Below, one piece after another: positions 682-40,626 of a stretch of DNA of 51,915 nucleotides. The notes under the pieces are model-generated. The model had not been told where the DNA came from. It was given only the letters and a program-made list of their open reading frames with translations, and did not search any database. Each line of letters begins with the position of its first letter. Position 1 is the stretch's first letter. Location of the stretch: positions 1-51,915 of the IMG/VR virus record IMGVR_UViG_3300050138_000383; one strand, 5' to 3'. The stretch comes from a virus. The position numbers and the translations under genes were made by a program.

Positions 682-3600
682 TTACGGGATAATCTCAACA
701 ATAATCCAAGCCACTGTGCTGGTATCTGTACCGCTAGAGCTTGTGATCACAAAACTGGTTCCAGCAGTTTTAGCGCCAATCCTTAAAAATCCAGGAGTGC
801 CGCCGTTTACTTGAGAAGTCAGGAAAATTTGGCTGTTAGCTGTTACGGAAGTATTTGCTACAGTTACAGTTCCAGCAGCCAAAACAGCCGTTCCGAGTTT
901 AGAATTGGTTCCAGTCTTAATTTGAAGACCTTTACCAAGTGTGCTGATAAGTAAATTACCAGTCGATACGTTTACGTCTCCGGTAAAAGTTGGAGTTGAT
1001 AAAGCTGGGTCAGTTGCCCAATATCCAGTTCCATCCGTTGCCGAGGCAACCCAAACTTGTCCGACAACTGCCGCTATTCCACTCTTAAGGAATTTGAAAA
1101 CGCCATGTGTTCCACCAGTACTAGTACCAGTAGTTAAGACGATGTCTCCAGAGTTGCCTGCGCCAGTACTGCCCGTATTACCAGTCGTTAAATTGATAGA
1201 GCCTGTATTGCCTACATTTGTGGTAGTAAGAGCAGCAGTAGAAATATTGATTGCGCCGCCAGATCCCGTTGTAGAACCGCCCGCAACACCGCCGCCACTG
1301 ATATTTACAGCGCCGCCGCCGCCAGTACTAGAGGCACTGGTTTGCCAACCACCCAATATGTTGACTGTTCCGGCATTACCAAGAGCGCCAGTCATGTTAC
1401 CTACGTAACCACCAGCGATATAAACGTTTCCGCCGTTACTTCCAGCTACCGTACTTCCTGTCCAACCACCCTGTACAACTATGTTTCCGCCAGGACCGTT
1501 CGCGGTAGAATTATTTTGTTCACCGGCCTGAATTAGAACTGATGCTGGATGTGTAGTATTACCATCAACGACAATACCAGGCCAAGCGCCAGGAGTAGAA
1601 CTATTATTGCCTCTACCTTGAAGCGTGAGCACTCCAGATCTGCCGCTGCCACTTGAAGCGTTGACAGCACCGGACTGAATATTGGTAGATCCACCATTTG
1701 TGCCACTCGCGCCCAATAAAGCTTGGCCTGCATAAATAGATATGTTTCCGCCGTCACTGCCAGAGAAACTTTGACCGCCGCAAACCAGACTAATATCTCC
1801 ACCATGTGTGGCAGAGTTACCATTATTTGTAGTGATGCTGATAGAACCAGCTATATTTCCTTGAGTAAATAGGTTGATTGCACCACCAGCCACTGTGGTA
1901 CTACTGCCACCACCACTGGTAATATTGATAGCACCATTTGCACCAGATCCGGTGTTAGTGCCTGAATTTATATTGATTGTACCGGCAGTGCCTGATCCAC
2001 CAGTATTTCCAGCCGTAAGACCGATATTGCCAGTGTTTCCGCCAGCAGACGAACCAGTAGAAATTGCGACCTGTCCAGAGTTACCTGTTCCAGCAGTTTT
2101 ATTTCCAGTAACGACCTGTATGTCAGCAGTAGCGATAGCATTTGCTGTAGCGTCGTTAGTTGTAACAAACCACAAAGGATCTTGCGCCAAAGCGAAGTTT
2201 GCGATACCGACCTGAGCGATACCCATACCTGTAACGCTAAGTCCGTTACCTGCGCTAGTCAACAGACCCATCAATAAAACGTCTGGACTAAAGAATGACC
2301 AATATCTCAAAGCAGAAGCTGCAAGGAATTGTATACTGCCTGCTGTACCCAGAGTAATAGCGTTGTTTGATGCAGGAACGATGTTGGCATTAACAGCGGT
2401 TGAAGCTAAGTTAGACAGAGCGGTATTTGCGCCGCTACCACCAGTTGCCCAATATCCAGTTCCATCAGTTGCGCTTGCTGTCCAGACTTGTCCGACAACT
2501 GAAGCGACTCCAGTTTTAAGGAATTTAAAAGTACCCTGTGTTCCACCAGAAGATGAACCAACGGTTAAACTTACGTTTCCAGAATTACCAGTACCACTAG
2601 TATTTCCAGAAGCAATTGTTACTGCGCCAGATGGACCATTTACCGAAGTTCCTGTTATGGCCTGAATAACACCTGAATTGGCGCTACCAGTACTGTTTCC
2701 GGTATTAATTACTACCGCACCAGAACCAATACTTGCTGCGGTTCCTGTGTTTATATTCAAGTCTTGACTAAATGTACCACTGTTCGCCGTTGATAATTGG
2801 CCAGCGACGGCGGCTCCAAAAACCAAACCAGTGTTTATAGCTACAGAAGCAAGATTTGATAATGCGGTGTTTGCGCCAGTAGTCGCGGTTGCCCACGCAG
2901 CGGTACCGCCAACAACTGTCAATACTTGACCAGTGGTTCCTATTGCTAAGTTAGCATATGTATTTGTACCAGATCCAACTATCAATCCACCAAGGGCGGT
3001 TGCTGGAGCCAATGCATTAAATGCGGCTGCTGCAGTCGTCTGACCCGTACCACCATGATTGATTGCTATAGTCGTAGCATTCCATGTTCCAGTGGTGATA
3101 GTTCCAACCGAAGCTAAGGACGATGCAGTCGTGAGTCCTGACAGTGTGGTCAGAGTAGAATTTGTAGTCGCGGACAAAACCGTGGCAGTCAATGACCCAG
3201 TGATATCACCAGTCAAAGTACCAACTAACGATAACGTTGGAGTCGTGGTAGGCGAAGTGACGGTACCAGTAAATCCACCGCCGTTTGTGAAAACAAAGTT
3301 TGTAACCGTGCCAGATCCAGAAAGCGTGGACCATGCAGGTAAACCGGCAACAACAGTCAGTACTTGACCAGTCGTTCCGATAGGTAGGCGAGAAGCAACG
3401 TTTGTGGCTGATTCATATTCCAAATCACCAGTCGTAGTCATAGGAGACAAAGCATTAAACGCAGCTGCTGCAGTTGTTTGTCCTGTTCCACCGTGAGCAA
3501 TTGCTATGGTCGTAGCATTCCATGTTCCAGCAGTGATGGTCCCAACGCTTGCTAAGGCTGATGCCGTAGTGAGCCCTGACAAAGTTGTCAGAGTAGCATT

Positions 3601-5652: not shown

Positions 5653-8600
5653 CTACAGCATTGACCAAGTGGTGCCGTCAGATACAAGCATGAAACTATC
5701 ATACTGAATGCTTGTGGTTTGAGAGCTAAGTCCGTTAATAGTATCTATACCTGCCGCTTGCATGGTCATAGCATTCGATGTAGCGTCTACTTTTGTGAAG
5801 TAGAATATCCGACCAGCCATAGAAGATGCCGATGGCAGAAGGAATTGTATTGCTCCGCTTGAACAGTCCGCCTTCAAAATACAGTCTCCGGTTAGAACGG
5901 TGTAATTTGAAATCTTCGTAGATATGGGTGCTGGTCCGCCTGGTCCTGCGCCCGATGGTCCTGCTGGTCCTGCTGGTCCTTCTGGTCCTGCTGCACCTGC
6001 GGCGGAACCGCCGCCTGAGTCAATGCGGAAAGTCAGTATATCGCCGACGACCAAGCTTCTATCGATTCGGATTTGATTCGAGAAAATATTGGGAGCGCCA
6101 ACTTCAGTCCAATCTCCGTTGGAGCCAGTCGTAATAATATCTAACTCAATAGCTGTAGTTGGATCTGATTGTGCAGACCAAACTGAACCCGTATAAGTGG
6201 CAATTGGATATTCACCAGTAAACGTGGTTTGAAGGCCAGAAGCAATTACTTGCTTATCGCCGCTATATACCAGAGGATTGTTAGAAGAATCTGTTTGGTG
6301 ATACAGGTTATCTGCGCCAAAGTTCTTGGACACTTGTCCAGTTAGATTTCCTGGAGAGGTTCCTGAAACCCTATAATTAGAACGAACATCCGAACCGCCT
6401 GGATTAGTCGAGCGTAATACAACCGCGTATTGATTTCCACTGGTTAACGTGTTCAGCCCAGAGAATGTCAAGGTAGTCAAAGCAGGATTCAACAATGTGA
6501 CCGGAAGGGTCGTAATGTTGATCGCAGCTGAAGACTCAATAAACGTCATAGTGGGAACGTTTGGAACCCCAGTATTGTCTGGAATTAGGAGATAAAGGTC
6601 TCCAACCAAATTTCCAGTGCCGCTAACAAAGGTCACCGATACTTGTGCTGAAGTGATCTTAGCCGTTTGTTGTGCAACGAACCAAGGACCTTCTATGATG
6701 CCGCTCGTATTGCTACCTAGAGTAATATTAGAAGCATTCGTTACAGCGGTGTGATTGATGAAATCAACAGGAGTAGTTCCAGAAGGTACAGAAATATTAG
6801 TTTCTTGAACAGTAATGCTTGCGCCGCCTGCTCCATCAGCAGTTTGGTAAGCGCCATTCGTCTCTAAAGAAAACCAATACGTTGTCCCGCCAGTGAGTGC
6901 AATTGGACTTGAAAATGGAAATAAGACAGTAGAGTTTGTGCCGAAAGTCAACGACGAGACCGCCTCATTAAGAGTTGAGGTCCCCAACACGCCGCCAGGT
7001 ATTCCTGCGGAATTGGATCTTACGGAAGCGGTAACTGTTCCAGTAGCCGTACCCGCAGAAGTTCTCGACATGATAAACTGAATGTCTGTTAAATTAACGT
7101 TTGATGCGGGGGTATATTTTATTGCCAATCCACCCTTACGAGCACCAGTTAAAGTGATCGCCAATGGATAAGATCCATCGGACATATGATACGACAACAT
7201 AGGAGCCGTAATGGGCGCGCTCGAAGTAGATAAATTCAGGTACTGTCCGTTAAGGAACAGCTCCAATGAACTCCTGCCCGTAATATATAGTTGAGCAGTT
7301 TCTGCTTCACGAGAATTCAGCGGCAGAGTAATATTTGTTCCAGGAGAGATTGGTCCAGTGATCTGATTAGAGTTGACTGGAACGCCAGCGATAACGTCCA
7401 AAGGTTCATCGTAATTGGGATTGTTGGCATTGGCCAGAATGAGAGCAAATTCTGCGTCCAGCAATTTGATAGCAAGAGTTAAATTATCGCCATTTTGAAT
7501 GATGGCGTTTCCGACTCCCGTTCCAAACTGAGTAGTGCTGATAGCAAACGGTGTGCCGACATTGAAATTAGAAGCAGCTGGGACTTCACCAGCAGAATTA
7601 TTGGTTACTGTTACGACGGCACCAGCTGCGCTAGCCGTAAAATCATTAAATAGCGTAGCGTTTAATGCGGAAGCAAGACTGGTCGCAGTTTGCGCTGCAG
7701 TTTGTCCTGTAGAAACTACCCATTGAATACCAGTTGCAGAGGCGTTAGGTGCTGGATCTACTCCAGTGCCATCTTTATTGACCCAAACATAATAGAATCT
7801 AGATGCACTAGACGAGTAAATTAGGAAATATTGATTTGAAGCAAGAGCGCTTGCGGCGGCGGCGGTAATGCTCGTTATTTGTGGAAGAGATCCGGTAATT
7901 AAAGCCGAAGTATAATCGGGCGTACTATCTGATTCTGAAGGCGAGCCAATGTATTGCAAGAGTTGTTTTGGAATTGCGCCATCAATTTGAAGGGATGAAC
8001 CATACTCAAGTTCCTGTCCAAGAAAATGAACATAAACAGTTGGAATCGGGCCACCGACGTCTTCTCGCGCAAAGAGCCAGAACGTATTTTGACCGACAGG
8101 AACATCGGCTCTAGAAGCAATATAGATGTCACGAGGACCGCTTGGACTTGCAACGGCGCTATAAGATCCAAGGGCATAAACACTAGGAACGCCAGCTGGA
8201 TTTTCCGAAGCTGGAACATAATTTCCGGTCAATGTGACTTGAGTGCCGGAATCAACGCTCTGAATTATAGCGTAATTGCTATCAGGATCTGCTGCTGCTC
8301 TGATGAAGTCACCAGCCAACAAGCTTCCGGTCCACGCGACCGCACCAACCGAAACGACGGTCGTCGTGTCTGGTATAGAATTGTACGTGTACAATAAATT
8401 TGGAGTGACCACAAGATCGCGGCCAAGAATAATGTATGCGACTTTATCATCAGCAAGTAAGATGTCGGCGGAAGTAGGATTAGCTGCAATCTCATACGAA
8501 AGCGCAGACCCAACTACTTTCAAATAAATAGGATCTGACCAATTGACTTGTCCCGCCGCCGTAACTTGAGCGGGATTGTAGAAAGAAATCGTTTCACCTA

Positions 8601-10404
8601 CAGCACTGATGACCGCAGAGTGAGACATTGTAACTGTTCCAGCGCCAATTGCGGTGATGGTAGTTCCGAATGGAATACCAGCTCCGAAAATAAATTGACC
8701 AATCACCAGGCCAACAGTTGAGGCCATTCCCGTTATCGTGTTCGCAGCACCACCAGAAGCACTGTTAATTGTATTGGTACCAGTTAAAGTAACGGATGCG
8801 GTCAATGAAATCAATCGACCGTTGATGGTACCCGCTTGTACTGCCGTAATTGCCGCAGATGCAATGACGTTACCATAGAAGGTAGCGCCAGCACTTGCGA
8901 CAGATTGGTTAATCGTAGCTGCAGAGCCAACTATCCAGTTGATGAACGTATTTGAGGGAGTCGCGCCACCAGTAAAAGCAAACGTTGGGACGTCGGTACT
9001 GCCAGTAGCTCCAGTAAGGAGAGTAGAGGCGGTATAGATAATGTAAGTGCCTGCACCATTGAAAGTAAGGGTGCTATTTCCAGACGTCAATGATAAACCC
9101 GCACTGCCTGAAGCGAATTTATAAGCTCCAGGAGTTAGGATTTGTCCACCAAGTTCAGATAGAATCGTGGTACCAGCTAAACCAGCAGCTTGACCTGCAT
9201 TGAATGCATTTTGAGCGTCTGTTTGAGCCTGTACGGCTATAGAATCAGCGGCATGGATAGTGCCATTGTCTACGCTTGGAGGAAAGTTGGTAACAGACGA
9301 CATGGTGCTTGGTGTAATGAACATGTCACCATTAACGATAGAGCCAGAACCAGTAGATCCAGTGATTGCCGAATAAGCACCAATCGCAAAATTGCCAGCA
9401 GTTCCTAAATTTAATGAACCGCCTGCACCGCCGCCTGCTCCAGACAGAGTGCCAGTAGTAGTTAAAACAGGATCATTGTTTGGCAATATGCCGTGAGTAA
9501 CTGTTCCTTGACCCACAGTGATCGTGTTTAGAGCATCTTCTCTAAGTTTGGTCAAAGATCCTGGACTTGGATTTAATCCACCCGAACCAGAGCCTGAATA
9601 CCAGAAAGTGCCACCCTTGACTTCTAACAGGGTCGTCATGATCGCGTCCATCCAGTCTTTCAGACTGAATAGCATCTTGTCGCCACCTTCGAAAGGATTT
9701 ACGCTATCCGAAGACGAGGTTGCAGAATTTTCTGTGCGACCTTCTGGTTGAGCGTTCCAAGGATAAACGTGGAACGGATCTGGTGCGGAACCACCAGTGC
9801 CAAGTCTGAAAAGCAGCCATCGACAATCGGTGATCGATACGACGTTGTTGCTGGCGTCAGTTTGGACGATTGCAATAGGAAGGAAGTTCGAAGCCCATGA
9901 AGTGGTCGAAACATTGATTTGGTATTGTAAAATCATCGCACGAGGTGCGGTGAGAGTCGTTTCGCTGTTTGTAGTGGGGTCCCAAAGATAGACCTGTGCG
10001 TCAGTCGTTGGATCGATAAAGCGCGTATAGTCAAGACCAATGTAATTGAGGGCATTTGGAGAGAAAGCGCCGGTTACGTTCGTGTTGACTGAACTATTCA
10101 GTTGCTGTAGGGGCGTGCCAGGAGGTACCATGAGGATGGTGCCTGATTGACTTGCCAGGATGTGCATTACGGAACTTGGGTTACTGCCAGGGTCCATGAT
10201 CATCTGTAGGTTAGATGCCGCGCCACCGATAGCTCCAGTCATGGAGAGTTCGAAGCCGCGCAGAATGTAGCCCTGCGTCACGTTGGTTACGAAGGCCTGT
10301 GTGCTTTGGTCCCAGTCGTTACTAGCTGCAGACTCGACGGCACGCATATCCGGCACGTCAACCCGTTGCTGCGAAATCCAATTTACTCGTCTTTGAACTG
10401 CCAT
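5653..10404 (-). CDS. Large tail fibre/baseplate-fibre protein with DUF3494 (ice-binding-like) and collagen-like segments
   Basis: This 1583-residue virion protein has a non-repetitive N-terminus (MAVQRRVNWISQQRVD) that probably anchors it to the baseplate. Residues about 329-551 form a DUF3494 domain, the ice-binding-protein-like right-handed beta-solenoid. The family's order of motifs is visible: LGTAGNFAIGAYSAITG, VNGDM, FPPSVDNGTIHAAD, ELGGQILTPGAYKF, GAGTYIIYT, INWIVGSAATI, ATFYGNVIA and INGRLISL. A second recurrent phage module (FYYVWVNKDG) lies at about 838-955. A short collagen-like GPEGPAGPAGPSG stretch is at about 1471-1495, ahead of a C-terminal domain ending in SDGTTWSML. The gene sits 9 bp upstream of the 1653-residue fibre gene on the same strand. 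In cells DUF3494 is found in secreted antifreeze and adhesin proteins. Here adhesion or a structural solenoid role is inferred. Confidence 0.85.
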   Translation of the reverse strand: MAVQRRVNWISQQRVDVPDMRAVESAASNDWDQSTQAFVTNVTQGYILRGFELSMTGAIGGAASNLQMIMDPGSNPSSVMHILASQSGTILMVPPGTPLQQLNSSVNTNVTGAFSPNALNYIGLDYTRFIDPTTDAQVYLWDPTTNSETTLTAPRAMILQYQINVSTTSWASNFLPIAIVQTDASNNVVSITDCRWLLFRLGTGGSAPDPFHVYPWNAQPEGRTENSATSSSDSVNPFEGGDKMLFSLKDWMDAIMTTLLEVKGGTFWYSGSGSGGLNPSPGSLTKLREDALNTITVGQGTVTHGILPNNDPVLTTTGTLSGAGGGAGGSLNLGTAGNFAIGAYSAITGSTGSGSIVNGDMFITPSTMSSVTNFPPSVDNGTIHAADSIAVQAQTDAQNAFNAGQAAGLAGTTILSELGGQILTPGAYKFASGSAGLSLTSGNSTLTFNGAGTYIIYTASTLLTGATGSTDVPTFAFTGGATPSNTFINWIVGSAATINQSVASAGATFYGNVIASAAITAVQAGTINGRLISLTASVTLTGTNTINSASGGAANTITGMASTVGLVIGQFIFGAGIPFGTTITAIGAGTVTMSHSAVISAVGETISFYNPAQVTAAGQVNWSDPIYLKVVGSALSYEIAANPTSADILLADDKVAYIILGRDLVVTPNLLYTYNSIPDTTTVVSVGAVAWTGSLLAGDFIRAAADPDSNYAIIQSVDSGTQVTLTGNYVPASENPAGVPSVYALGSYSAVASPSGPRDIYIASRADVPVGQNTFWLFAREDVGGPIPTVYVHFLGQELEYGSSLQIDGAIPKQLLQYIGSPSESDSTPDYTSALITGSLPQITSITAAAASALASNQYFLIYSSSASRFYYVWVNKDGTGVDPAPNASATGIQWVVSTGQTAAQTATSLASALNATLFNDFTASAAGAVVTVTNNSAGEVPAASNFNVGTPFAISTTQFGTGVGNAIIQNGDNLTLAIKLLDAEFALILANANNPNYDEPLDVIAGVPVNSNQITGPISPGTNITLPLNSREAETAQLYITGRSSLELFLNGQYLNLSTSSAPITAPMLSYHMSDGSYPLAITLTGARKGGLAIKYTPASNVNLTDIQFIMSRTSAGTATGTVTASVRSNSAGIPGGVLGTSTLNEAVSSLTFGTNSTVLFPFSSPIALTGGTTYWFSLETNGAYQTADGAGGASITVQETNISVPSGTTPVDFINHTAVTNASNITLGSNTSGIIEGPWFVAQQTAKITSAQVSVTFVSGTGNLVGDLYLLIPDNTGVPNVPTMTFIESSAAINITTLPVTLLNPALTTLTFSGLNTLTSGNQYAVVLRSTNPGGSDVRSNYRVSGTSPGNLTGQVSKNFGADNLYHQTDSSNNPLVYSGDKQVIASGLQTTFTGEYPIATYTGSVWSAQSDPTTAIELDIITTGSNGDWTEVGAPNIFSNQIRIDRSLVVGDILTFRIDSGGGSAAGAAGPEGPAGPAGPSGAGPGGPAPISTKISNYTVLTGDCILKADCSSGAIQFLLPSASSMAGRIFYFTKVDATSNAMTMQAAGIDTINGLSSQTTSIQYDSFMLVSDGTTWSML
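8750..9420 (-). other. DUF3494 (ice-binding-like) domain, copy A, in the 1583-aa fibre protein
   Basis: This is the coding segment for residues about 329-551 of the fibre protein. It carries the ordered DUF3494 motifs listed under the gene and is flanked by Gly/Ala-rich linkers (GAGGGAGG before, SASGG after), as expected for an inserted module. About 60-65% of residues appear shared with copy B by eye. The central part, TILSELGGQILTPGAYKF through IIYTASTLL, is identical in both proteins. Confidence 0.8.
9047..9168. repeat. 122-bp perfect repeat, copy 1 (in fibre gene DUF3494 domain)
   Basis: Bases 9047-9168 are identical to 17088-17209. With one mismatch, at 9169/17210, the match extends to 9186/17227. 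The flanks diverge quickly although the protein domain continues. This suggests recent gene conversion or recombination between the two domain copies and not simple selection on the protein, because third codon positions are also identical. Confidence 0.9.
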
Positions 10405-10407
10405 AAG

Positions 10408-10974
10408 TTATTGATTTCCTTCATAATTATCAGATTTTTTGATATTATCTGATGCCCATAATGGCTGCAAATTCGTATAATGGAATAGACTAAGCAGTTG
10501 ATCGCTGGTTTTTGCAGATGCTAATGGAATCTTGTGATCTATATGCCACTTGCCGTGATTTTCCCACGACATGCCTGGCTTAAAGCTTGTCTCAAGATGT
10601 TTTTTTATATCCACAACCGGAGCGCCAAGCATTTTGACGGTGGAGGCGGATTTTGACATATTTTTTATAACGTTATGCATTCTTGATCTTAGGCTCTTCG
10701 ATAATTTATACAGAGGGTCCTGCTGCAGTCTTGCTCTTTGCCGATTATTTCTAGAAATTCGTCTTTTTTCGGTACCCGATCTAGATTCATCGTATGCACT
10801 TTGAGTGGATTTGCGTTTTTCACTTTTATTATGATCTTTTTCACAATCCTTGCAATGAGGAGCGTATCCATCCTTACTATTAGATCGTCTATAAAATTCA
10901 CAAAAGTCTTTAACGGACGGGCATTTGCTACACGCTTTCATAGATAAAAGATTGCCATCTTGCATATCCTCCAT
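10408..10974 (-). CDS. HNH endonuclease with N-terminal zinc finger (homing type)
   Basis: The 188-residue product has an N-terminal CSKC...CKDC zinc-binding pair followed by a basic region. The C-terminus has the nuclease signature: MSWENHGKWHIDHKIPLA, then NLQPLWASDN with a final Lys/Asp/Asn-rich tail. The His-Asp-His core plus the later Asn fits the beta-beta-alpha-metal HNH fold, which makes DNA strand breaks. Two relatives occur in this window (25348-25896 and 50647-51246). This one lies directly upstream of a fibre gene on the same strand and is probably a free-standing homing endonuclease. The start is uncertain: related proteins begin close to the first Cys pair, so the internal ATG at 10941 (MKACSKC) is an alternative. 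Neither start has a convincing ribosome binding site. Confidence 0.8.
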   Translation of the reverse strand: MEDMQDGNLLSMKACSKCPSVKDFCEFYRRSNSKDGYAPHCKDCEKDHNKSEKRKSTQSAYDESRSGTEKRRISRNNRQRARLQQDPLYKLSKSLRSRMHNVIKNMSKSASTVKMLGAPVVDIKKHLETSFKPGMSWENHGKWHIDHKIPLASAKTSDQLLSLFHYTNLQPLWASDNIKKSDNYEGNQ

Positions 10975-12431: not shown

Positions 12432-12612
12432 AGAAATTTTAGAGCTTATTTTCTTAGCGATTTCAGTAATCGCCATCGTTTACTCTTGCGAGCGCGCAAC
12501 GACTATGACCTATCTAGAGCAAACTGCGGAACAGTCCCAACAAAGTCAAAATTCAGCTGGTATGACGATTTTATCGCGACCACATGCGACTCAGAAGAAA
12601 CTTTCGCATTAG
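12406..12612 (+). CDS. Small single-pass membrane protein (possible lysis accessory)
   Basis: This 68-residue frame begins inside the exonuclease 3' end (ATG at 12406; a TTG at 12400 is also possible). It encodes a short basic N-terminus, one strong hydrophobic segment (ILELIFLAISVIAIVYSC) and a Gln/Ser-rich tail. That layout resembles an inner-membrane spanin or other lysis accessory protein, and it follows a transglycosylase. Against it, there is no clear ribosome binding site and its last 110 bp overlap the convergent tail gene at 12503-12928. It is included with modest confidence because of the membrane segment and position. Confidence 0.4.
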   Translation: MTASKQKNKEILELIFLAISVIAIVYSCERATTMTYLEQTAEQSQQSQNSAGMTILSRPHATQKKLSH

Positions 12613-12928
12613 GAATGAACAAAATATCTTCTGAAGTGCTTCTGTCTTGAATCCTGATCGAAATATAGGGATTTGCGGCCAAATCCTTTGCCAGATTCAA
12701 GGGTCGCATGTTCATGGCTTGCAATCCACCACTCAATTTCACTCTCATGCCAGTCACAGATCCGCTAATAGTAATGCCAGTAGAAGCAATTTCTTGAGCA
12801 AATAACGAGTCAATACCCTTAGTCGCCTGTTCGCCGTAATCAATTTTCACACTGATTGACTTGATGTAGGGATAAACCTTGTTGTTAATGTAGACTTTTA
12901 CGTCAGCGCCGACTATTGTTAAGATCAT
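12503..12928 (-). CDS. Putative tail/baseplate structural protein (141 aa)
   Basis: The 141-residue product begins MILTIVGADVKVYINNKVYPYI and consists of alternating hydrophobic and polar strands with few cysteines, consistent with an all-beta virion protein. Phrases such as ASTGITISGSVTG and YISIRIQDRSTSEDILFI resemble small tail tube or baseplate beta-barrel proteins. That comparison is an impression, not a firm family match. It is the last gene of the minus-strand baseplate operon, 12 bp after the 656-residue baseplate gene. It overlaps the small membrane protein on the opposite strand by 110 bp. Confidence 0.7.
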   Translation of the reverse strand: MILTIVGADVKVYINNKVYPYIKSISVKIDYGEQATKGIDSLFAQEIASTGITISGSVTGMRVKLSGGLQAMNMRPLNLAKDLAANPYISIRIQDRSTSEDILFIPNAKVSSESHVVAIKSSYQLNFDFVGTVPQFALDRS

Positions 12929-12940
12929 TATTCCTCTGAG

Positions 12941-14911
12941 CTATTTGCTGAATTGCGGCCAAATCAATCCGGTATCACCAATTGGATCGCCACCATACAC
13001 GTAGGCAATTTCACTATATTCGGTTCCCCATTTTCCCAATCCTATGTCGTTCGGATAAAGGATCGTGAAGACAATGGTGATTCCAGTCGCAACCACGCTA
13101 TTGATCAAATCTTGAGCATACTTTCGGCCCGCGACAACGTCGGTAAGGTAAAAGGGATAGTCCAGACCATCAGAACTGATCAATGGAGGACTCTTGGACG
13201 AAATCAGAGATACGTTCGTACCTGGCTGAAAAGTGTTTTGCAGCGTGTAGGTCGGACTAATAAGGATTGTGTCGCCAGATGGAGTCGAAATATAAGGGAC
13301 CGGACCTTCTTGATTCTGTGTTCCGTATCCAAAGATTATATAGCCCTGGCTATTTGGAAAATTGGCTGAACTTTCAACCGTAAACACTCTAGACTGTGAC
13401 CCATCAAGTTCTTGTGTTAAAAGCGTGCTTACGCTTCCTACCGTGAATGGCTGAGTGGTATCAAACATATATGGACCAAGCTGGTTTGGCAGTTCCGAAG
13501 TAGGGTCGCCAAGAGGTCCACTAGCCACAATATTTGCTGGATTCCCAGAATAGGTTCCAACCAAAGTCAAGGCTGGATCGTCTTGCCATACTGTCAGGAG
13601 TGGGTTTCCAGAATAACCATCGGTTTGCAGAGCATTTCCGCCAATCGCACTGATTCCTGGCACCCCAATAAGCGCGGTAACCATATTTGCAATAGTTTCG
13701 GGAATGGTTGCGGCGATTGCGAAGTCTGTTCCAGCAACCAGAAAGGTAGTGGTCGTAATCTGGAATACGTCTCCAAGCGATGGCTGAGTGTTGAATACGT
13801 ATTGTACGTTTGAAGGATCGTGCAAATGCGCTGAGCCGATTCGACTACGTCTTACGACCTTAGTTGTAGCTGGCAAAAACACTTGCAAAATTCTGTTCTG
13901 TGTTGAAAAGATAGCTGCATACGAATATTTACTTAAAATCGATTCTCTAGTTGGATTGAAAAATGATATGGCGTCATCGGCCCCTTGGATAAAGACTCCA
14001 GAAGATCCCAAAGGATTGCTCACCTCGAAATATGCTATTCCAACGGCTCCGCCTACAACATTTACGATTGTGTAGTTACCTTGATTAGTAGTGGCCAAAA
14101 ATCCGCCACCAAAAATATTGACGTAGTTTCCTGCAGTTACCCTTCCAAGATTTGGATTCGCTCCGCCAGTCCACATAAATCTAATAAGACCACCAGGACG
14201 AAGACTTAGCGTCCACTGCGTGAAGGAGTTTCCTCCAGCACCGACCGTAGATGGGAAAATAAGTTTATTCTGAGCGCTACCGCCCAAAACCGTAACGCTA
14301 GATGCGGGTCCAATAGTGGTACTGATTAGTTCGACGAAATATCCATTTCCATTATTGACTGCGATAGCAGATCCCGACAGCCCTTGTGTGCTTAATGAAG
14401 AAGATATTGCATCAGCCACTTCTTGAGCTAAAGCTGCATTGATGTTAGTAAATTGATTTGTATGAAAAACAATAGTCGCAGTTTCATGATCATCAAAATT
14501 TACTACTAGGGTGTCGCCGTCGACCAAATTGTATGGCTCGACCATGCTAGAAGAACTAGTTGCCTTAGTGAAATCATCGCCAAAAATGGCGTCCAGAAGC
14601 TGACCAACCAGATCACGCACCTGTTTTCTATTCTTTACGGCTATTCCGATTTGTCTAAATATTTCATCGGACAAACCAACTGCTGGGGGTCTGGAGATAC
14701 CGTACTGAGAAAGTCTCTCATCCAAATACTTGCCGGAAGCCGTGGTGATATATAGCTGATCATTGATTGCCGAAGCAGAATTGATCAAATACGCACCGTT
14801 TGAAGCTGCCAAAGCATTGAGAACTGCGTCGACATTCGGACCCTTGATAAAAGGATTCAAATATGAGCGCAGCCTCGTATACTGTTCTGCCTGAGTAGTT
14901 GGAATTGGCAT
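12941..14911 (-). CDS. Putative baseplate wedge protein (656 aa)
   Basis: The product is a 656-residue virion protein. The N-terminal ~110 residues are helical (LNPFIKGPNVDAVLNAL, KYLDERLSQYGISRP, KQVRDLVGQLLDAIFGD). The remainder is Gly/Asn/Thr-rich beta structure. The gene starts one base after the stop of the baseplate J-like gene, so the two are probably translated together, and their products probably contact each other in the wedge. No enzyme motif is seen. Assignment to a wedge component rests on operon position and the helical attachment region; I cannot equate it with a single T4 or Mu protein. Confidence 0.7.
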   Translation of the reverse strand: MPIPTTQAEQYTRLRSYLNPFIKGPNVDAVLNALAASNGAYLINSASAINDQLYITTASGKYLDERLSQYGISRPPAVGLSDEIFRQIGIAVKNRKQVRDLVGQLLDAIFGDDFTKATSSSSMVEPYNLVDGDTLVVNFDDHETATIVFHTNQFTNINAALAQEVADAISSSLSTQGLSGSAIAVNNGNGYFVELISTTIGPASSVTVLGGSAQNKLIFPSTVGAGGNSFTQWTLSLRPGGLIRFMWTGGANPNLGRVTAGNYVNIFGGGFLATTNQGNYTIVNVVGGAVGIAYFEVSNPLGSSGVFIQGADDAISFFNPTRESILSKYSYAAIFSTQNRILQVFLPATTKVVRRSRIGSAHLHDPSNVQYVFNTQPSLGDVFQITTTTFLVAGTDFAIAATIPETIANMVTALIGVPGISAIGGNALQTDGYSGNPLLTVWQDDPALTLVGTYSGNPANIVASGPLGDPTSELPNQLGPYMFDTTQPFTVGSVSTLLTQELDGSQSRVFTVESSANFPNSQGYIIFGYGTQNQEGPVPYISTPSGDTILISPTYTLQNTFQPGTNVSLISSKSPPLISSDGLDYPFYLTDVVAGRKYAQDLINSVVATGITIVFTILYPNDIGLGKWGTEYSEIAYVYGGDPIGDTGLIWPQFSK

Positions 14912-17900
14912 TTAAGTTCCTATCTGGCTTACGGACACGTCTGTGGTCGGATCGATAATCAAAGCTTTTTCACCAGTAGTCAATACGATCAAATCGTCGT
15001 TGACGTCGAATTTTGGGAAACTGACCGCTACAGATAAGATTCCTGGTATTGCGGTAACTGCAGATATGATCGAACTGATTGCTAAAGGCTGACCCAGTTT
15101 ATTAGAATTGACCAGAGCGGTAACAGTATTTTGAACCGTTTGAACCGTTTGGGCAAATGGAACGCCAGTATTCAAGCGAATTGCCAGAGAAACTTGGATT
15201 CTGCGAATCAGAGGACCACGAATAAAGATTTCAGCGCCTGCGGCAGCGACACCAGGGAAGGTGATATTATCTCTTGGGTTACCGTATACGATCTCGTTTG
15301 CAACTTGGATCAATCCAGTGTTGTACTGATAGCTGTCCAAACCGAATTTGATTACGGTACTGTAGTTCATCTTATTTAAAGAGAGCATTTGGACCAAAGC
15401 TGCCTGATTGATCTTGTCATACTGAGCATTCGTGGTGAACGCCATAGTGGTAAATGTAGGTGCTCCAGGTTGTGGAATGGCATACAGGATATTCTTGTAG
15501 CCAGAGTAAGCAACGCCTTCTTCAACATATAGTGATGACACAATACCGTTCAAGCTAACGTTCGATACGCTTACCAAACTTCCCCTAACAATTGCAGAAT
15601 CTTGACTCAAAACCTTAATAACGGGCCAGCTTCCAATATTATTTATGTTAAATGCATTATTGGTGATGACGACATTGTCGCCAGGCACAGTTGCGTCGTA
15701 TTCGTAGAATACAAGTTGAGGGCGATCAACCACTAAGGTGCTGGTTGAAACCGTTACGCTTGATTGTGTGAACGCAGAAGGATTTACCACTTCTAGGAAT
15801 GTTACTCGACCAGCTTGCAATACATTGATTGCAAATGGAGAAGGCATGGTTCCAGCCAAGGGCGCAGTGGTTGCTTTGAATCCCTGAGTAGTCACAGTCA
15901 AGGTTCCACTTGATGTTGCGGTAAAGAAGTCTAAGGACGTGTTTAAAGCGGAGATTACTGCAGCGGTATCGTTTGCGACAGTTGCTGCCGAATCGCCCGC
16001 ATTAACATTTACTTGCACAAGAGTTCGTCCGCCTGCTGATGGCGCAACGTTGGTTCCTGGCGTAACGTTAAACCATACCCTGTACAGATTTGCGTTACCG
16101 GCACTATTAATATCGAAATAAGCACCCGCTCCAGCAGATGGGAGGCTAGATGCGGTAGGCATAATGAAACTTGCAATTTCTTGTAGCTTCACGCCTGATT
16201 GCAATACCATGAAGCTTCCTTGGTTTGCAATGTTGAAATCTGTTCCGAAGGTGATAATATCACCCATGTTTACATTTCCAAGGAATGGCTCAGTTCCGGT
16301 GCCGTTCCATGTCAATAACAGGCTGCCGTTAGATGAGCTGACCGCAAATGACGTGGTAGCATCAAATCCTAAACTCACTGGATTTAACGGCAAACTCACC
16401 TCTTCTTCAACTACATTAGGATTTTCAAACCATACGCTATCGTTATATCGGCGAATAATTCTGAACTGACCTTGATTTAGAACGTTAAAAGGAGCGCTTA
16501 CGATCATGGTATCACCCTCAGATACCTGAGTGGTAGACGTGAAAGTGGTACCAGAGACGACGGCTGCACCTGATTGAACTACGCCATTTGGATTCAGTAC
16601 TTGCAATACCTGGCCGTTGCTAGAAATTCCAGTTACCAAGAAGGTACCGGAGTTCGATGCGTTAAGTCCTACGATAGTAACCAAATCGCCAATTGACAAT
16701 CCATTAAAATTGAGGGGGCCGCTTGCTACCGTATACTGCGTATTGCTAGAACCCGTAACAGGTGTAACATTGACGGTACCCGCGCCAGCTGGAGCATTGA
16801 CAGTCGTGACACCAGTAAGGGTTACAGCGCCGTTTCCGCCGCCAACCGCTAACAGTCGACCGTCAATAGTACTCGCTTGAGTCACTGCGACAGACGTGAA
16901 TGCAAGTACTGTTCCGTAGAATGTTGCTCCTGCGCTTGCGACAGATTGATTAATAGTGGCTGAAGAACCCACGGCCCAATAGATGAACGTGTTGGTTGGA
17001 GTAGCTCCACCAGTGAATGCCATAACTGGAAAATCAGTACTGCCAGAAGCTCCTACTAGAAGGGTCGATGCAGTATAGATAATGTAGGTGCCTGCACCAT
17101 TGAAAGTAAGGGTGCTATTTCCAGACGTCAATGATAAACCCGCACTGCCTGAAGCGAATTTATAAGCTCCAGGAGTTAGGATTTGTCCACCAAGTTCAGA
17201 TAGAATCGTAGTACCAGCTAAACCAGCGGTTTGGCATGCAAGAAAAGCTGTATTGCCATCGATTCGACCTTGGTTAGCAGCCGCGTCGGCTGCATGTATA
17301 GTGCCGTTATCGATGCCAGGAGGAAAATTAGTCACTGATGACAGGGTATTAGGATAAATGCCCATATCTCCGTTAACGACAGTACCAGAAGCAGCCGAAC
17401 CAGTGATAGCAGAATAAGCTAAAACAGCGAAGTTAGCCGCAGTGCCTAGATTAACAGACCCGCCGCCGCCGACGTCATTAAAATTGACGGCAGTCTGGAA
17501 CATTGGGCTGGTGCTGATATTTGGATTTGCACTCAGGCAAACCAAACTACCCTGCTTCTCAATTCTGAAAGTTCTTCCTTGAGGACGAACATTGTATCGA
17601 GGTGTACCGAAGTATCTTTGGTTAGAATTCCTGTTTAACAGAGTAATAATTGATTCGCCAGCGATAGGGCTGTTTCCAACGATTGTGGCGCTAGTGTTTG
17701 ACGAAAATCCAGTAGCCTTAGCTTGCTTATTTCCAGCCTGAAGTCTGAACCACTGTCCGCTTTGTACGCCTGCTGCAGCAACCAGAGTCGCATTTGCACT
17801 CATGATTACGTTATCTATTCTTTGAGCAGATCCGAAAATCGGAACTTCATATGAATTGGCTAACCCGCCAACGATTTGAATTGCGCCTACGCTACCCAGA

Positions 17901-20900
17901 GTCTGAGTAGACAGCTGAACGCGCGTTCCACGGTCGACTAAGTCTACGTTTCCGAGAGTTGTAAATCCTGTGACTGCCAAAACATTCAGGAATCTGTCGA
18001 CCTGCTCCATAGTAGTTGGAGAGAGTTCGATCTTTTCGCTGTTATTGAATGCATATCCATAGGCGGTTGGTAATGCCAAAGGATTTTTAAGTGAAAATTC
18101 AGGAGATCCGCCCAAATTGCTTGAAGCGATCCAGTTGATTCCATCTTTGAGCTGTATGTATGAGGTAGCGAATGCGCTGTCCTCAGAGGTTGAAAAGTTG
18201 ATGACGCCAGTACCATCGTTGCTAACTCCGTAATTTGCAAGACTTGCCGTCAAATACTGACTTAAGTTGGCGTTCACGTATGCGACGACAGCGTTGGCCG
18301 TAGTTGGTGCCGCATTATAGAACAAGACAGAGCCTGTTACGCCAGTCAAGACAGGACTTGCAGCAGAAGCGACTCCGTTAGGCATTTGCACACTGAATTT
18401 TATTGATGTTGGAGTGAATCCTGCAGCAGTTGAGACTTTGAAAACACCAGTGTTTGCTGAACTGAATCCAGAATTTACGCCGATGTTGACATATTCTCCA
18501 CCAACCAAAGTTAGAGCCGGATTGGTTCCAGATCCAACGAATGAGAATGCAGAATAATTTATGGTTGCGTCGCCAGTTCCGCTAATTTTTGTCAAAACGC
18601 TGGGCGCAGTATTTGGAGCAGAAAAGTTGCCGTTAGTTACCAGAGGTGTGCCGCTAAGTCCACCAGCCAAGGATGTAGTGCCAATTGCTGGAACTTGAGA
18701 ACCGCTGCCAGAAGTCAGAGAAACCTGATTAGAAGGATTTGCAGCATTCCAGTTTGCGATCAAAGTGGTAATGGTTGATACGCCATTTCCGGTCAAGACA
18801 ATGGAATTACCATTGGTGCCCAGATTGTTTGCGGTGAGTGTTACGCTCGTTGAAGTTCCAGTAATTACTCCAGTGAAGCTAGCAAACGTACTTACTATAG
18901 TGGCAGCTGCAGTGAACGTCTGACCATTAGGCGTAGAATAAACTGCTCCAATAGTAACATTCGCCGGAGGGACAGTGAACGTATACTGACCAGCCCAAGT
19001 GTATGTGACCTGATCTATGCCAGCAGGAGTGTTTGGAGTGACCAAAACATTCCATTTTGTGGTAGAAGTGATTCCGGTAGCGATTGGTAAGCCCGATGCC
19101 AAAACAATAGAGATGTGAATGTTTTCATCATTAGTTACGACGTTACCAATGCCCTGATTTGATGACGATGGATACGCATATGAGATACGCATTCTTTCGC
19201 CAGTTCTGCCCCAAGGTGCCGATCTGTATAGGATGGCGGTATTAGGCGGAGTAGGCTGCATCACATTTTTGGCCTGCATTAAAACTTTGAAATTCGAAAA
19301 ATCAAACGTTGAGCCGAAAGTAGACGAGAATGCTGCTCCACCTGCTGCCGTATCGGTAGCATTGAAGGTATTAGTATTTGATGAAACAACAGTATTTGTA
19401 GTTGCGACCCTAAAGAAAGGAATCGTAAAGCTTCCAGAAACTGGATTATTGTCGATAATTACCACTGCGGTGTCTTTAGGACCAAAATCCAATGGTGACG
19501 CCAAGAAATAACGATCAAGTTGTCCAGGAGTGTCGCCACGCAATCTGCGCATAGTTGCTTTTTCAGCAATGTCTACGATGGGATTAGTTGAGAGAGAAGT
19601 CTCTTGAACGAAATCGCCGTATGGCTGAGCGTCTCTGATTATTCCGTAAGGATGTAAAACAGAAATCAGATTATTAGGATCAGTTCCAGCCAAACTTGTA
19701 GCCGAAGTGAATTGGGTCAGGAAGCTATCGGGAGGATACGCTATTACTCCAGGTGCTGCCATAGGAGAGTGAAGGAACAGAGGCATCTGAGCGTCGTACT
19801 CGCCGCTGTCGTATGCTGCAAGCAGTGATGGATTGCTAGTCGCCATCACTCCAGTAGTAAAGTCTAGAGCTTGACCATTGGCATCAGCAGTCACGACCAT
19901 CAAGCTTCCGCTGATGTCTAAAGTGTTTGACGTGATAACTAGATATTGTTCCAAAAGAGTGGTGAATTTAACTTCATCACTTTGGGCCTGTAAGGCTTCA
20001 GCAACTGCGTCAATAGTCGAGGTTCCTAGAGGTATGCTGAATTTTTGAGGAGCTTCAGAACATCGGCAAACAACGAAACCTTGAGTAAAAGGAATGCCTG
20101 TAACAGGAGTATATGCAGCAAATTCTGTTGCTGTGACCGAGATGTCCAGAGTAGTAGAGGTAACGGCGTAAACTCGTCCCTCGAATCTGTCGCTTAGTGG
20201 AATGTCAGTAGACCAAACAATCACGTAGTCGCCAGTCTGTACGTTGCTAAATGCTCCAACCACGTTTGAAGTGTAACGGATAACGTTCGTAGATGGACTA
20301 GAAACCGTCAAAGCGGTATTACCTACGACGCCAGTGGGTATAATCACACCAGGATCATCGATCAATAACCAGATATATCCTTCTGCCGTGAGCACAACGC
20401 TTCCAGCTGCAATTTGCACGCTTTGGATTCTAGCTGCGGTTTGAGTTGTACCGGCTGCCAAACTATCTTTTGCAACCAGTGGTGCGGTCAGCTCAATTTG
20501 TGCGGTATTTCGATTTAATGTATAGTCAGAAGCTGCTCCCTGAGAGACAAGTCCTAAAGAGGACGAGAACATTCCTTTTGTGACCAGTGTTGATCCCGAA
20601 CCAATAACAATCTCTGCGCGATTGCTCGTACCCAAATTGCTGGTAAGTTGAATTTGTGATCCAACGATTGCAGCTGTTACGCCAGTCAGAACGTTATTAA
20701 ATACTTTGACCCAAGAAGCCAAACTATTCGTGTTGGCTACGCTAGTAAAATCTCCAGCTGCAATGAACATTGCGTTAGTAATCGTGTACGTGATTGGCGA
20801 AGTGCCATCTACAGACAGAACAAGAGTATCGCCATTCGCAATTGATGCTGACCACAAACTTTGATCTTGAGTTAGGATCGATGCGGTTGCACCGTCTTTG

Positions 20901-22597
20901 CTCAACGGCATATTGTTTTTATAAAGACGTAGGGTTTCGTATAAGCTCGAAGGGAATCCCATTTGAATCGAAGCATCGCGACCAGTGGTGATAGGGGTCG
21001 TGATCTGAATAGAATCTTTACCTTCGGTTTTGTCGCGCAAAACTACATAGGTTCCGCCGCCTTGAGTAAGGGCCTCAAAACCAAGAGTGGTGTCGCCATT
21101 AATAGACGCGGTGATCTCGTATGCAGTGGCTGCATTGGGACTTCTGAAATCTGAGTTTTGGAACGTATGCTGATAAGTGATTCCGCCAACTACTATGGCA
21201 AGAGTATCTCCGCCACGAATAGCGAATGGAGTACCCAAAGAACTTTGCAGGAAGGCTTTAGCAACGGAAGATTGGTTTCCGCCGCACGCTAATTGGAAGA
21301 ATTGTTCTCCGCCCAGCGCGCTATTTAGGATGGATTCGACTCCGACGCCGGTTGACGTTTCCTCGTATCCGCTTCCATTATCGAGATATAATACGGCACC
21401 ATATGATGCTTCTAGCATATCGGTGCTGCTGACGGTTGCCGCTACTGGAGTAGTGCATTGAGCGCCTTGAACGGCTGACTCGACCGCAAATACCGTGCCC
21501 AGGCCAATTGATGCGAGTGCATTTTTGATCGAAACACGTAACTGATCATCGGTTTCATTGTCTTGGCCAGTGGTAAACGCCAAAGGATTGCTGACCGTCG
21601 CTCCACTAAACGGAGCCGAAGCGAATTGTTTGATCGCGCCGATAGGAACGTTGCCGTCAGAACCTGGCAATTGAGCGGTAACGGGAACATTGTTGACAGT
21701 AGTTTCACCGTCAAGAACGATTGCCGACGCAGTTGTGTTATAGGAAATGCTTGGATTTGCACCCAATGCAGGAGCGATAACAGTAGAATTAATCGGAACA
21801 GATCTGTTTCCGCCTTGGGCTACGATAACGGTCTCGCCTAAGTTATGAAACTTTGCGGTTGGAACAGCAAGGGTGACCGTCCAGTAACTTCCGACCAAAA
21901 CGGGCGGAGTCGTATACGTAAGAGAAGCACCTATAGCCGTCGCGGTAGCTGCAAGAGTCAAAGTGATCTGGGTACTGGAGTCAATAGACTGAATCGTAGC
22001 GCCAGCTGGAATCATAGTTCCAGTAACTGGATAGCCAACCAAAAGATTTGCTGTGGATAAAAGTCCAGTGATGATTTGCGAATTTATAGTGGTATTGCCA
22101 GCTACCGATACCCCGACAAGATTGTAAGCCAAAGGTCCTTCGATGTTTGGCGTGCCGCGACCGATGTAAATTGCGCCAGTGGCAGGAAATTTTGATGCAT
22201 CGCCTACGGCAATTAGGGTAGAGCCAACGTTTGGCGCTGGAAGTCCAGCATAAACAGAGGTCGCGATTTTAGTAAAACTTGTATCTATTACAGAGACGAA
22301 TCCGGTTGCGGGGCTTGCGGTAATTGGAGTGATATTATTTTCTGTTGCAAGGCGTTGCAAAGCATCGCCGGTTGCACGGTCGACCGAAAAGTCTCTTAGA
22401 ATCTGGAACAAATCGCCGCTCGCGCGTGCAGTTGTAAGAGCTACAACTTCGAAAAAGCTAGTGACCGCTGAGCCTACGTTAAAATCGTCAATACCGATTT
22501 TTGCTGCATAAGCACTTAACGCATCAGATAAAATCTGCTCGTAAGACTGTGGTGTAGGGACGTTCGTAAATGAGGGTGTGTCGGGTGTAATTGCCAT
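14912..22597 (-). CDS. Giant baseplate J-like protein with embedded DUF3494 domain (2561 aa)
   Basis: The N-terminus (SYEQILSDALSAYAAKIGIDDFNVGSAVTSF as two adjacent segments) and the C-terminus (RRIQVSLAIRLNTG, then AISSIISAVTAIPGILSVAV) match baseplate J/gp6-type wedge proteins, which usually have about 300-660 residues. Between these ends lies a very long insertion of beta-rich modules. It includes a DUF3494 ice-binding-like domain at residues about 1712-1935 (LGTAANFAVLAYSAITG, FPPGIDNGTIHAAD, ELGGQILTPGAYKF, IYWAVGSSATI, IDGRLLAV). It also includes a LYRVWFNV module at about 2157-2254 that is related to one in the 1583-residue fibre protein. The protein should form part of the baseplate wedge with outward-projecting domains. 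It lies between the LysM/gp25-like gene and another wedge gene. The frame is open throughout, so this is one intact gene. Confidence 0.85.
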   Translation of the reverse strand: MAITPDTPSFTNVPTPQSYEQILSDALSAYAAKIGIDDFNVGSAVTSFFEVVALTTARASGDLFQILRDFSVDRATGDALQRLATENNITPITASPATGFVSVIDTSFTKIATSVYAGLPAPNVGSTLIAVGDASKFPATGAIYIGRGTPNIEGPLAYNLVGVSVAGNTTINSQIITGLLSTANLLVGYPVTGTMIPAGATIQSIDSSTQITLTLAATATAIGASLTYTTPPVLVGSYWTVTLAVPTAKFHNLGETVIVAQGGNRSVPINSTVIAPALGANPSISYNTTASAIVLDGETTVNNVPVTAQLPGSDGNVPIGAIKQFASAPFSGATVSNPLAFTTGQDNETDDQLRVSIKNALASIGLGTVFAVESAVQGAQCTTPVAATVSSTDMLEASYGAVLYLDNGSGYEETSTGVGVESILNSALGGEQFFQLACGGNQSSVAKAFLQSSLGTPFAIRGGDTLAIVVGGITYQHTFQNSDFRSPNAATAYEITASINGDTTLGFEALTQGGGTYVVLRDKTEGKDSIQITTPITTGRDASIQMGFPSSLYETLRLYKNNMPLSKDGATASILTQDQSLWSASIANGDTLVLSVDGTSPITYTITNAMFIAAGDFTSVANTNSLASWVKVFNNVLTGVTAAIVGSQIQLTSNLGTSNRAEIVIGSGSTLVTKGMFSSSLGLVSQGAASDYTLNRNTAQIELTAPLVAKDSLAAGTTQTAARIQSVQIAAGSVVLTAEGYIWLLIDDPGVIIPTGVVGNTALTVSSPSTNVIRYTSNVVGAFSNVQTGDYVIVWSTDIPLSDRFEGRVYAVTSTTLDISVTATEFAAYTPVTGIPFTQGFVVCRCSEAPQKFSIPLGTSTIDAVAEALQAQSDEVKFTTLLEQYLVITSNTLDISGSLMVVTADANGQALDFTTGVMATSNPSLLAAYDSGEYDAQMPLFLHSPMAAPGVIAYPPDSFLTQFTSATSLAGTDPNNLISVLHPYGIIRDAQPYGDFVQETSLSTNPIVDIAEKATMRRLRGDTPGQLDRYFLASPLDFGPKDTAVVIIDNNPVSGSFTIPFFRVATTNTVVSSNTNTFNATDTAAGGAAFSSTFGSTFDFSNFKVLMQAKNVMQPTPPNTAILYRSAPWGRTGERMRISYAYPSSSNQGIGNVVTNDENIHISIVLASGLPIATGITSTTKWNVLVTPNTPAGIDQVTYTWAGQYTFTVPPANVTIGAVYSTPNGQTFTAAATIVSTFASFTGVITGTSTSVTLTANNLGTNGNSIVLTGNGVSTITTLIANWNAANPSNQVSLTSGSGSQVPAIGTTSLAGGLSGTPLVTNGNFSAPNTAPSVLTKISGTGDATINYSAFSFVGSGTNPALTLVGGEYVNIGVNSGFSSANTGVFKVSTAAGFTPTSIKFSVQMPNGVASAASPVLTGVTGSVLFYNAAPTTANAVVAYVNANLSQYLTASLANYGVSNDGTGVINFSTSEDSAFATSYIQLKDGINWIASSNLGGSPEFSLKNPLALPTAYGYAFNNSEKIELSPTTMEQVDRFLNVLAVTGFTTLGNVDLVDRGTRVQLSTQTLGSVGAIQIVGGLANSYEVPIFGSAQRIDNVIMSANATLVAAAGVQSGQWFRLQAGNKQAKATGFSSNTSATIVGNSPIAGESIITLLNRNSNQRYFGTPRYNVRPQGRTFRIEKQGSLVCLSANPNISTSPMFQTAVNFNDVGGGGSVNLGTAANFAVLAYSAITGSAASGTVVNGDMGIYPNTLSSVTNFPPGIDNGTIHAADAAANQGRIDGNTAFLACQTAGLAGTTILSELGGQILTPGAYKFASGSAGLSLTSGNSTLTFNGAGTYIIYTASTLLVGASGSTDFPVMAFTGGATPTNTFIYWAVGSSATINQSVASAGATFYGTVLAFTSVAVTQASTIDGRLLAVGGGNGAVTLTGVTTVNAPAGAGTVNVTPVTGSSNTQYTVASGPLNFNGLSIGDLVTIVGLNASNSGTFLVTGISSNGQVLQVLNPNGVVQSGAAVVSGTTFTSTTQVSEGDTMIVSAPFNVLNQGQFRIIRRYNDSVWFENPNVVEEEVSLPLNPVSLGFDATTSFAVSSSNGSLLLTWNGTGTEPFLGNVNMGDIITFGTDFNIANQGSFMVLQSGVKLQEIASFIMPTASSLPSAGAGAYFDINSAGNANLYRVWFNVTPGTNVAPSAGGRTLVQVNVNAGDSAATVANDTAAVISALNTSLDFFTATSSGTLTVTTQGFKATTAPLAGTMPSPFAINVLQAGRVTFLEVVNPSAFTQSSVTVSTSTLVVDRPQLVFYEYDATVPGDNVVITNNAFNINNIGSWPVIKVLSQDSAIVRGSLVSVSNVSLNGIVSSLYVEEGVAYSGYKNILYAIPQPGAPTFTTMAFTTNAQYDKINQAALVQMLSLNKMNYSTVIKFGLDSYQYNTGLIQVANEIVYGNPRDNITFPGVAAAGAEIFIRGPLIRRIQVSLAIRLNTGVPFAQTVQTVQNTVTALVNSNKLGQPLAISSIISAVTAIPGILSVAVSFPKFDVNDDLIVLTTGEKALIIDPTTDVSVSQIGT
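16790..17460 (-). other. DUF3494 (ice-binding-like) domain, copy B, in the baseplate J-like protein
   Basis: This is the coding segment for residues about 1712-1935 of the 2561-residue protein, flanked by Gly-rich linkers (VGGGGSVNLG before). Motif order is the same as in copy A. The classic VNGDMGI and GTIHAADA motifs are kept better here than in copy A. Confidence 0.8.
17088..17209. repeat. 122-bp perfect repeat, copy 2 (in baseplate gene DUF3494 domain)
   Basis: This is a direct copy of 9047-9168, in the same orientation, about 8 kb away. It is long enough to be a substrate for homologous recombination. Recombination between the copies would delete the HNH, lysis and small baseplate genes between them and fuse the two virion genes. 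Confidence 0.9.
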
Positions 22598-25347: not shown

Positions 25348-25896
25348 ATGAACACATCAAAACACTGTAGTAAGTGTAAAATTTATAAAAACCACGAAGA
25401 ATTCCACGACAATAAAAAATCAAAAGACAAAAAAGCGAGTTGGTGCAAAGAGTGTTCGAATAAATTCAAAAAGCCATGGACAAACACTCAAGAAGCATCC
25501 AAAAGAAACAGCGAATATTTTCAAGAAAACAAAGAATCCATAAAGCTTAGAAGAAGGGAGAGATATGCCACAGACCTACAGTTTCGTATATCATGTAACT
25601 TGCGCAATAGATTGGGAAAAGCAATAAAAGGAAGGGTTAAAAAGGGGTCGGCCATAAAGGATCTGGGTTGCTCTATTGAAGAATTTAAGAGGCATATCGA
25701 GAACAAATTTAAGCCTGGAATGTCCTGGGAAAATTACGGATTTGGAATTTTAAAATGGAACGTCGATCATATCATTCCCCTATCCAGCTTTGATCTGCAA
25801 AACAGAGAAGAATTCGTTAAAGCCTGTCATTACACCAATCTGCAACCTCTCTGGCATATTGACAATATGATAAAATCTGATAAAATAAACACATGA
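25348..25896 (+). CDS. HNH endonuclease with zinc finger (homing type), opposite strand to tail genes
   Basis: The 182-residue basic protein starts with a CSKCKIY...CKEC zinc-binding pair. Its C-terminal nuclease motif is WNVDHIIPLSSF followed by CHYTNLQPLWHIDN. It is clearly related to the nucleases at 10408 and 50647, sharing the GMSWEN(H/Y)G lead-in. It probably cleaves DNA at a specific site and promotes its own spread. It is transcribed against the surrounding tail genes. Its stop codon overlaps the start of the next gene as ATGA, so it is coupled to a metalloprotease gene. Base composition is more A-rich than its neighbours, consistent with transfer. Confidence 0.85.
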   Translation: MNTSKHCSKCKIYKNHEEFHDNKKSKDKKASWCKECSNKFKKPWTNTQEASKRNSEYFQENKESIKLRRRERYATDLQFRISCNLRNRLGKAIKGRVKKGSAIKDLGCSIEEFKRHIENKFKPGMSWENYGFGILKWNVDHIIPLSSFDLQNREEFVKACHYTNLQPLWHIDNMIKSDKINT

Positions 25897-40380: not shown

Positions 40381-40386
40381 ATGAAC

Positions 40387-40624: not shown

Positions 40625-40626
40625 GC

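Follow-up and report, generated by a model that had tools for sequence, protein, structure and literature searches.

A 51,915-base viral record of IMG/VR (IMGVR_UViG_3300050138_000383), analysed here in its entirety, probably a fragment and called the window below, carries the DUF3494 domain twice, once in a fibre-like protein and once in a baseplate-J-like protein. Ice-binding domains are known from cells. We propose that in this phage DUF3494 serves as an exchangeable, recombined module displayed on the virion surface, its likeliest effect being adhesion to ice or some other regular surface, and we put the probability of this reading at roughly 0.6. That virions display the domain, that they adhere through it and what they bind are all inferred, with ice as the leading and plausible ligand. 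The features on which the argument draws are the following.

5653..10404, minus strand: fibre-like virion protein with DUF3494, 1583 aa, ORF intact
5653..5993, minus strand: collagen-like Gly-Pro-X stretch and C-terminal domain of the fibre-like protein (from sequence; tandem repeat 5929-5993)
8530..8754, minus strand: small module with a 'GIP' motif (residues 551-625), directly after DUF3494, optional in relatives
8776..9381, minus strand: DUF3494 / PF11999 domain of the fibre-like protein, residues 342-543 (Pfam; AlphaFold2 and Foldseek)
9047..9168, minus strand: 122-nt tract in the fibre DUF3494, identical to 17088-17209
9589..10404, minus strand: conserved N-terminal region of the fibre-like protein (residues 1-272), 34-74% identity in IMG/VR relatives with or without DUF3494
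12503..12928, minus strand: 141-aa structural protein, synteny marker
12941..14911, minus strand: 656-aa structural protein, homologue of the Mx1 'kelch repeat protein', synteny marker
14912..22597, minus strand: baseplate-J-like protein, 2561 aa, with the second DUF3494 (matches the baseplate wedge subunit family phrog_6, E 4.5e-18; colinear with the baseplate J of Mx1)
16811..17425, minus strand: DUF3494 / PF11999 domain of the J-like protein, residues 1725-1929 (E 1.2e-22), after FNDVGGGG
17088..17209, minus strand: 122-nt tract in the J DUF3494, identical to 9047-9168

Two copies of an ice-binding-type domain in one phage

An earlier note, made from the sequence alone, had placed a DUF3494 domain at 8750-9420 (residues ~329-551) of the 1583-residue protein. 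PF11999 (Ice_binding, DUF3494) bears this out with E=1.2e-23 and 84.3 bits, far over the curated cut-off of 28.7, across profile positions 2-205 of 208, and the proposed coordinates agree with it to about 10 residues. When a profile of both window copies is compared with solved structures, the closest by sequence are ice-binding proteins (6EIO, 1.4e-23; 7BWX, 8.3e-16). The AlphaFold2 model of residues 318-625, built from an alignment of 48 window and IMG/VR sequences, has block means of pLDDT of ~94-98 over most of the solenoid, with a few blocks at 78-91, and predicts a long helix (model residues 71-92) alongside the solenoid strands. Foldseek returned 31 PDB matches with E<=0.001 for this model, all 31 of them DUF3494 ice-binding proteins (7BWY: TM 0.85 normalised to the target, rmsd 2.3); the Ig fold is absent from the domain, these significant matches all being DUF3494 solenoids. 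The beta-solenoid with an alongside helix that the note had expected is thus predicted, the right-handedness it had assumed being a minor point (the DUF3494 solenoid is left-handed according to PMC12337378). Where the note had set two outcomes against the domain, no HMM match or another fold, we found a Pfam match and a predicted ice-binding solenoid. Fold matches of 55-62 residues to many phage structural proteins, the aligned residues of which are not shown, are consistent with the small 'GIP' module.

No PHROG tail-fibre family matched the 1583-aa protein. We call it fibre-like on the strength of synteny, its relatives, the collagen-like stretch and the C-terminal domain, the last two together being typical of phage fibres. 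At 682-5643 lies a Gly/Thr/Ser-rich protein of 1653 aa in which GGGFTG...TPTLSL...LTGDITG segments recur; it is a putative second fibre with no family match.

The second PF11999 domain, in the J-like protein, had been overlooked in the earlier note. It scores 81.0 bits against the cut-off of 28.7, covers profile positions 1-204 of 208, and shares 73-75% protein identity with the fibre copy. The 122-nt tract common to the two is the sole exact direct repeat of at least 40 nt within the window; none of its ~33 synonymous sites differs, whereas synonymous divergence on either side approaches saturation (pS 0.54-0.96). Because an identical tract sits amid saturated synonymous sites, recent recombination or conversion between the fibre and J copies is indicated, and the pattern points to two older paralogous domains overlain by such a tract, the mechanism being inferred. 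Three endonuclease VII/HNH-like ORFs are also present (10408-10974, 25348-25896 and 50647-51246), one of them directly adjoining the fibre gene; as possible homing endonucleases, these could promote conversion of adjacent tail genes.

Insertion, permutation and descent among related phages

Over residues 1-272 the fibre N-terminus shares 40% identity with WNM70277.1 of Myxococcus phage Mx1, and the genes for J, the 656-aa protein, the 141-aa protein and the fibre follow one another as in Mx1 and in IMG/VR relatives. On our best reading, the DUF3494 carriers here are contractile-tailed phages distantly related to Mx1; contractile sheath genes are seen in the relatives only, the window being a 52-kb fragment. 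The window also encodes an RNA ligase / tail fibre attachment catalyst (phrog_562) with a polynucleotide kinase (phrog_505) at 36094-38769, which we take to be a T4-type tRNA repair pair, as well as a tRNA-Ala (44378-44453) and a tRNA nucleotidyltransferase (42941-43564).

Among these relatives the fibre site exists in three states between conserved flanks, since both the N-terminus and the region after the variable stretch are conserved. Most IMG/VR loci have 33 aa there (41 in L083 and L084); L077, L078, L079 and L085 have 111-118 aa, with the small module and no DUF3494; and the window, L010, L080 and L081 have 320-348 aa, with DUF3494 followed by the small module. J orthologues have at least three DUF3494 insertion sites: that of the window, after FNDVGGGG, which is shared by G004 and empty in L048, L065 and others, a second in L110 and a third in L069 and L111. 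DUF3494 occurs in J and fibre together in four further IMG/VR records (G004, G023, G039 and G040). Against our preferred reading we count that most relatives manage without the domain: of the 41 records with a related J or fibre, 35, Mx1 among them, lack it, many records being fragments. A further small module (Y-VWFNV-G...DPAP-GG...) is common to the fibre and J of relatives (P0001 residues ~840-960, J ~2140-2260), and in L012 DUF3494 sits inside it.

DUF3494 is also found in the N-terminal part of 906-924-aa proteins of four related loci (L018, L020, L026 and L038). These proteins align with the Mx1 tail sheath over ~460 residues at 39-45%, and the two that were profile-scanned both match the tail sheath family phrog_279. 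In the sheath copies the C-terminal part of the domain comes ahead of the N-terminal part, and a DUF3494 profile rotated by a cut before the helix scores 165-179 bits on them, against 118-126 in normal order. The 523-aa proteins from L012 and L015 and the J protein of G023 likewise score higher with the rotated profile, and the fibre copy of L008 fits this order too. The permuted copies listed here exceed the normal-order score by about 47-59 bits.

Circularly permuted DUF3494 in sheath: L026:7362-10133; L018:1028-3772; L020:2287-5049; L038:1835-4552
Circularly permuted DUF3494 in J and other proteins: L069:9971-17221; L012:7398-8966; L015:5398-6966

Both window copies score higher in the normal order (143.6 and 132.3 bits, against 85.3 and 82.3 rotated), and none of 79 bacterial loci has the rotated order, near-ties in fragments aside. 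The sheath copies thus read as circularly permuted, and the rotated profile led us to reject two tandem half-domains in favour of a single permuted DUF3494. This topology rests mainly on sequence, because the AlphaFold model of the L026 sheath region gives 80-96 in most blocks of helix and solenoid but a mean of 63 for the relocated part and flanks; Foldseek aligned only the larger part of that model, ~144 columns. In the literature searched, no account of a circularly permuted DUF3494 was found. The first and last solenoid coils of AnpIBP lie side by side (PMC7277481), which should make both loop insertion and circular permutation structurally easy, and the permuted viral copies constitute a natural experiment on the fold. 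Where related sheaths hold DUF3494, the Mx1 tail sheath (L193, Mx1 39019-42471, 953 aa) holds an unrelated sequence, so this region seems to accept different modules.

The earlier claim that no characterised virion protein has this domain holds in the collections searched. Four DUF3494 queries gave no tblastn match in 50,697 phage records (INPHARED), and in BFVD Foldseek found full-domain matches only to three proteins of Hyperionvirus, a giant virus. Profile scans found no relatives with the two window copies alone in IMG/VR or with one window copy alone in GTDB; a wider alignment including 6EIO and AnpIBP found 42 DUF3494 loci in IMG/VR. Of these 42 records, 7 have a TerL match, and 7 of 35 match a portal family; the phage status of the remainder comes from the IMG/VR classification and, for some, from virion-protein neighbours. 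In the tree, the window pair, L005/L006 and L007 form one group of five (98 SH-aLRT), nested in a viral-only branch of 32 rows (support 94). Recent capture from a sequenced bacterium was rejected, as the nearest tree rows are other phages and the closest intact bacterial matches have ~42% identity. A contig labelled Candidatus Wolfebacteria (L179:635-2180) has a DUF3494 that is 53% identical to the window copy in its best segment and split over two frames.

The conserved face and what it may bind

The ice-binding residues of AnpIBP are backed by mutation (PMC7277481), and we mapped its B-face positions by alignment onto 17 phage copies, as a comparison of composition only. At the outward B-face positions Ser/Thr make up 63% (pool: 27%; permutation P<1e-4) and charged residues ~1%; these positions are also less variable than other columns (entropy 0.67 vs 1.15, P=0.0015). 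The face is therefore kept, though ice binding does not follow from this, as bacterial copies have the same composition (87% AGST). The fold itself could account for part of the Ser/Thr face.

We propose the following mechanism. In-frame insertion would have placed a phage-held lineage of the ice-binding domain in loops of structural tail proteins, a position suited to a fold with adjacent first and last coils, and copies of the domain would recombine between genes within one phage. Each copy would keep the flat, uncharged Ser/Thr/Ala/Gly face that is the ice-binding face of characterised relatives, so that the tail end would bear many weak binding faces. Most likely, virions would then adhere reversibly and multivalently to ice or some other regular surface of the habitat, which could concentrate them near hosts or shield them during freeze-thaw. 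It is tempting to go further and to speculate about a group of contractile-tailed phages whose virions adhere to ice through DUF3494 faces on baseplate, fibres and sometimes sheath, permuted versions included; such particles would partition to ice or survive freezing by means of their own structural proteins and without host antifreeze genes. This bolder version is tentative, and we consider it doubtful.

A narrower form of the adhesion reading would have the face bind a repetitive host glycan or exopolysaccharide instead of ice. The location of DUF3494 in fibre and baseplate, closest to the host, fits a host-cell adhesin, and modular adhesins on virions have a precedent in Ig-like domains (PMC13370021). 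Against this, the chemistry of the face equals that of validated ice-binding proteins, and the sheath copies of relatives are ill-placed for receptor specificity. Moreover, to our knowledge glycan binding has been demonstrated for no DUF3494, and we hold this narrower form to be possible but on the whole unlikely.

The insert might instead be a passive structural spacer, a stiff and stable solenoid that alters reach or protects fibre and J, with the Ser/Thr face as a by-product of the fold. Phage fibres are made of beta modules, and other modules swap at the same sites (the 'GIP' module in the fibre, the unrelated sequence in the Mx1 sheath), as such a reading would expect. However, the B-face positions are more conserved and richer in Ser/Thr than the rest, which argues against a mere spacer, and the domain occurs in J, fibre and sheath, proteins of differing architecture, and not just where length matters. 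We therefore regard a purely structural role as rather improbable.

An auxiliary gene for host cryoprotection has been proposed for PF11999 in Arctic viral contigs, in three vOTUs of which it is annotated as an AMG (PMC11515562). A gene of this kind may exist in L022 (6090-7031, 314 aa), where a DUF3494 protein with a lipoprotein-like N-terminus is perhaps truly host-directed; it adjoins the major capsid gene. The window copies, by contrast, lie inside 1583- and 2561-aa structural proteins with no export signal, and DUF3494 has orthologous placement in other phages, so for them we reject this explanation as very unlikely. With N-terminal hydropathy as a crude proxy for a signal peptide (threshold 1.6; some viral rows repeat one record), a strongly hydrophobic N-terminus is found in 2 of 57 viral DUF3494 proteins and in 79 of 90 bacterial ones; the window proteins have maxima of -0.12 and 1.17, and their domains are internal. 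Similarly without a signal are the DUF3494 genes of two phages of another type (L009:7671-8822 and L011:5283-6389), which lie between portal and major capsid genes and are possible head-module proteins; the L022 gene occupies an equivalent position but has the signal-like N-terminus.

Finally, although the window is one metagenomic contig, an assembly chimera joining a bacterial ice-binding gene to phage DNA can practically be dismissed, because separate IMG/VR records carry in-frame copies at the same fibre site (L010, L080, L081) and the same J site (G004), and the GC content of the domains (0.469 and 0.482) is close to that of the surrounding genes (0.471 and 0.463).

Comparison with known systems

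The closest known counterparts are the DUF3494 ice-binding proteins (6EIO; AnpIBP, 7BWX; SfIBP_1, 6BG8), which share with the window copies the sequence family, the predicted solenoid-plus-helix fold and the Ser/Thr B-face. Those are secreted or anchored proteins made by cells, the bacterial ones that we fetched being mostly ~245 aa with an N-terminal hydrophobic segment, whereas the window copies are internal domains of virion proteins. Some related phage copies differ further in being circularly permuted. Mx1 (OR576727.2) is colinear in J, the 656-aa homologue, the 141-aa homologue and the fibre N-terminus, but its 169.6 kb lack any PF11999: its J site is empty, its fibre is short and its sheath has another insert. 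The Hyperionvirus proteins resemble the window copies in full-domain fold but belong to a giant virus with no phage tail context.

The Arctic vOTU genes belong to the same Pfam family in viral contigs and were read as host cryoprotection, with no virion placement stated in the excerpted text (PMC11515562). That paper names Synechococcus phage S-SKS1 as holding a homologue; this was not confirmed here, as PF11999 had no match in NC_020851. Viral PF11999 matches need rereading, since many are parts of virions and not host cryoprotection genes. If our proposal is true, ice-binding domains borne on the tail would give viruses a new mode of interaction with their physical surroundings and would make the survival of viruses in frozen soil or ice directly testable.

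The nearest functional parallel is offered by the Ig-like accessory domains of tailed phages, for example the adhesins of gut phages, which are likewise optional, mobile modules in several virion proteins. Such adhesins are displayed and adhesive and target epithelial surfaces (PMC13370021), whereas DUF3494 has an unrelated fold and a proposed target in ice or another regular surface. Its repeated insertion in unrelated virion proteins would set DUF3494 alongside the Ig-like domains as a second type of mobile display domain in phages.
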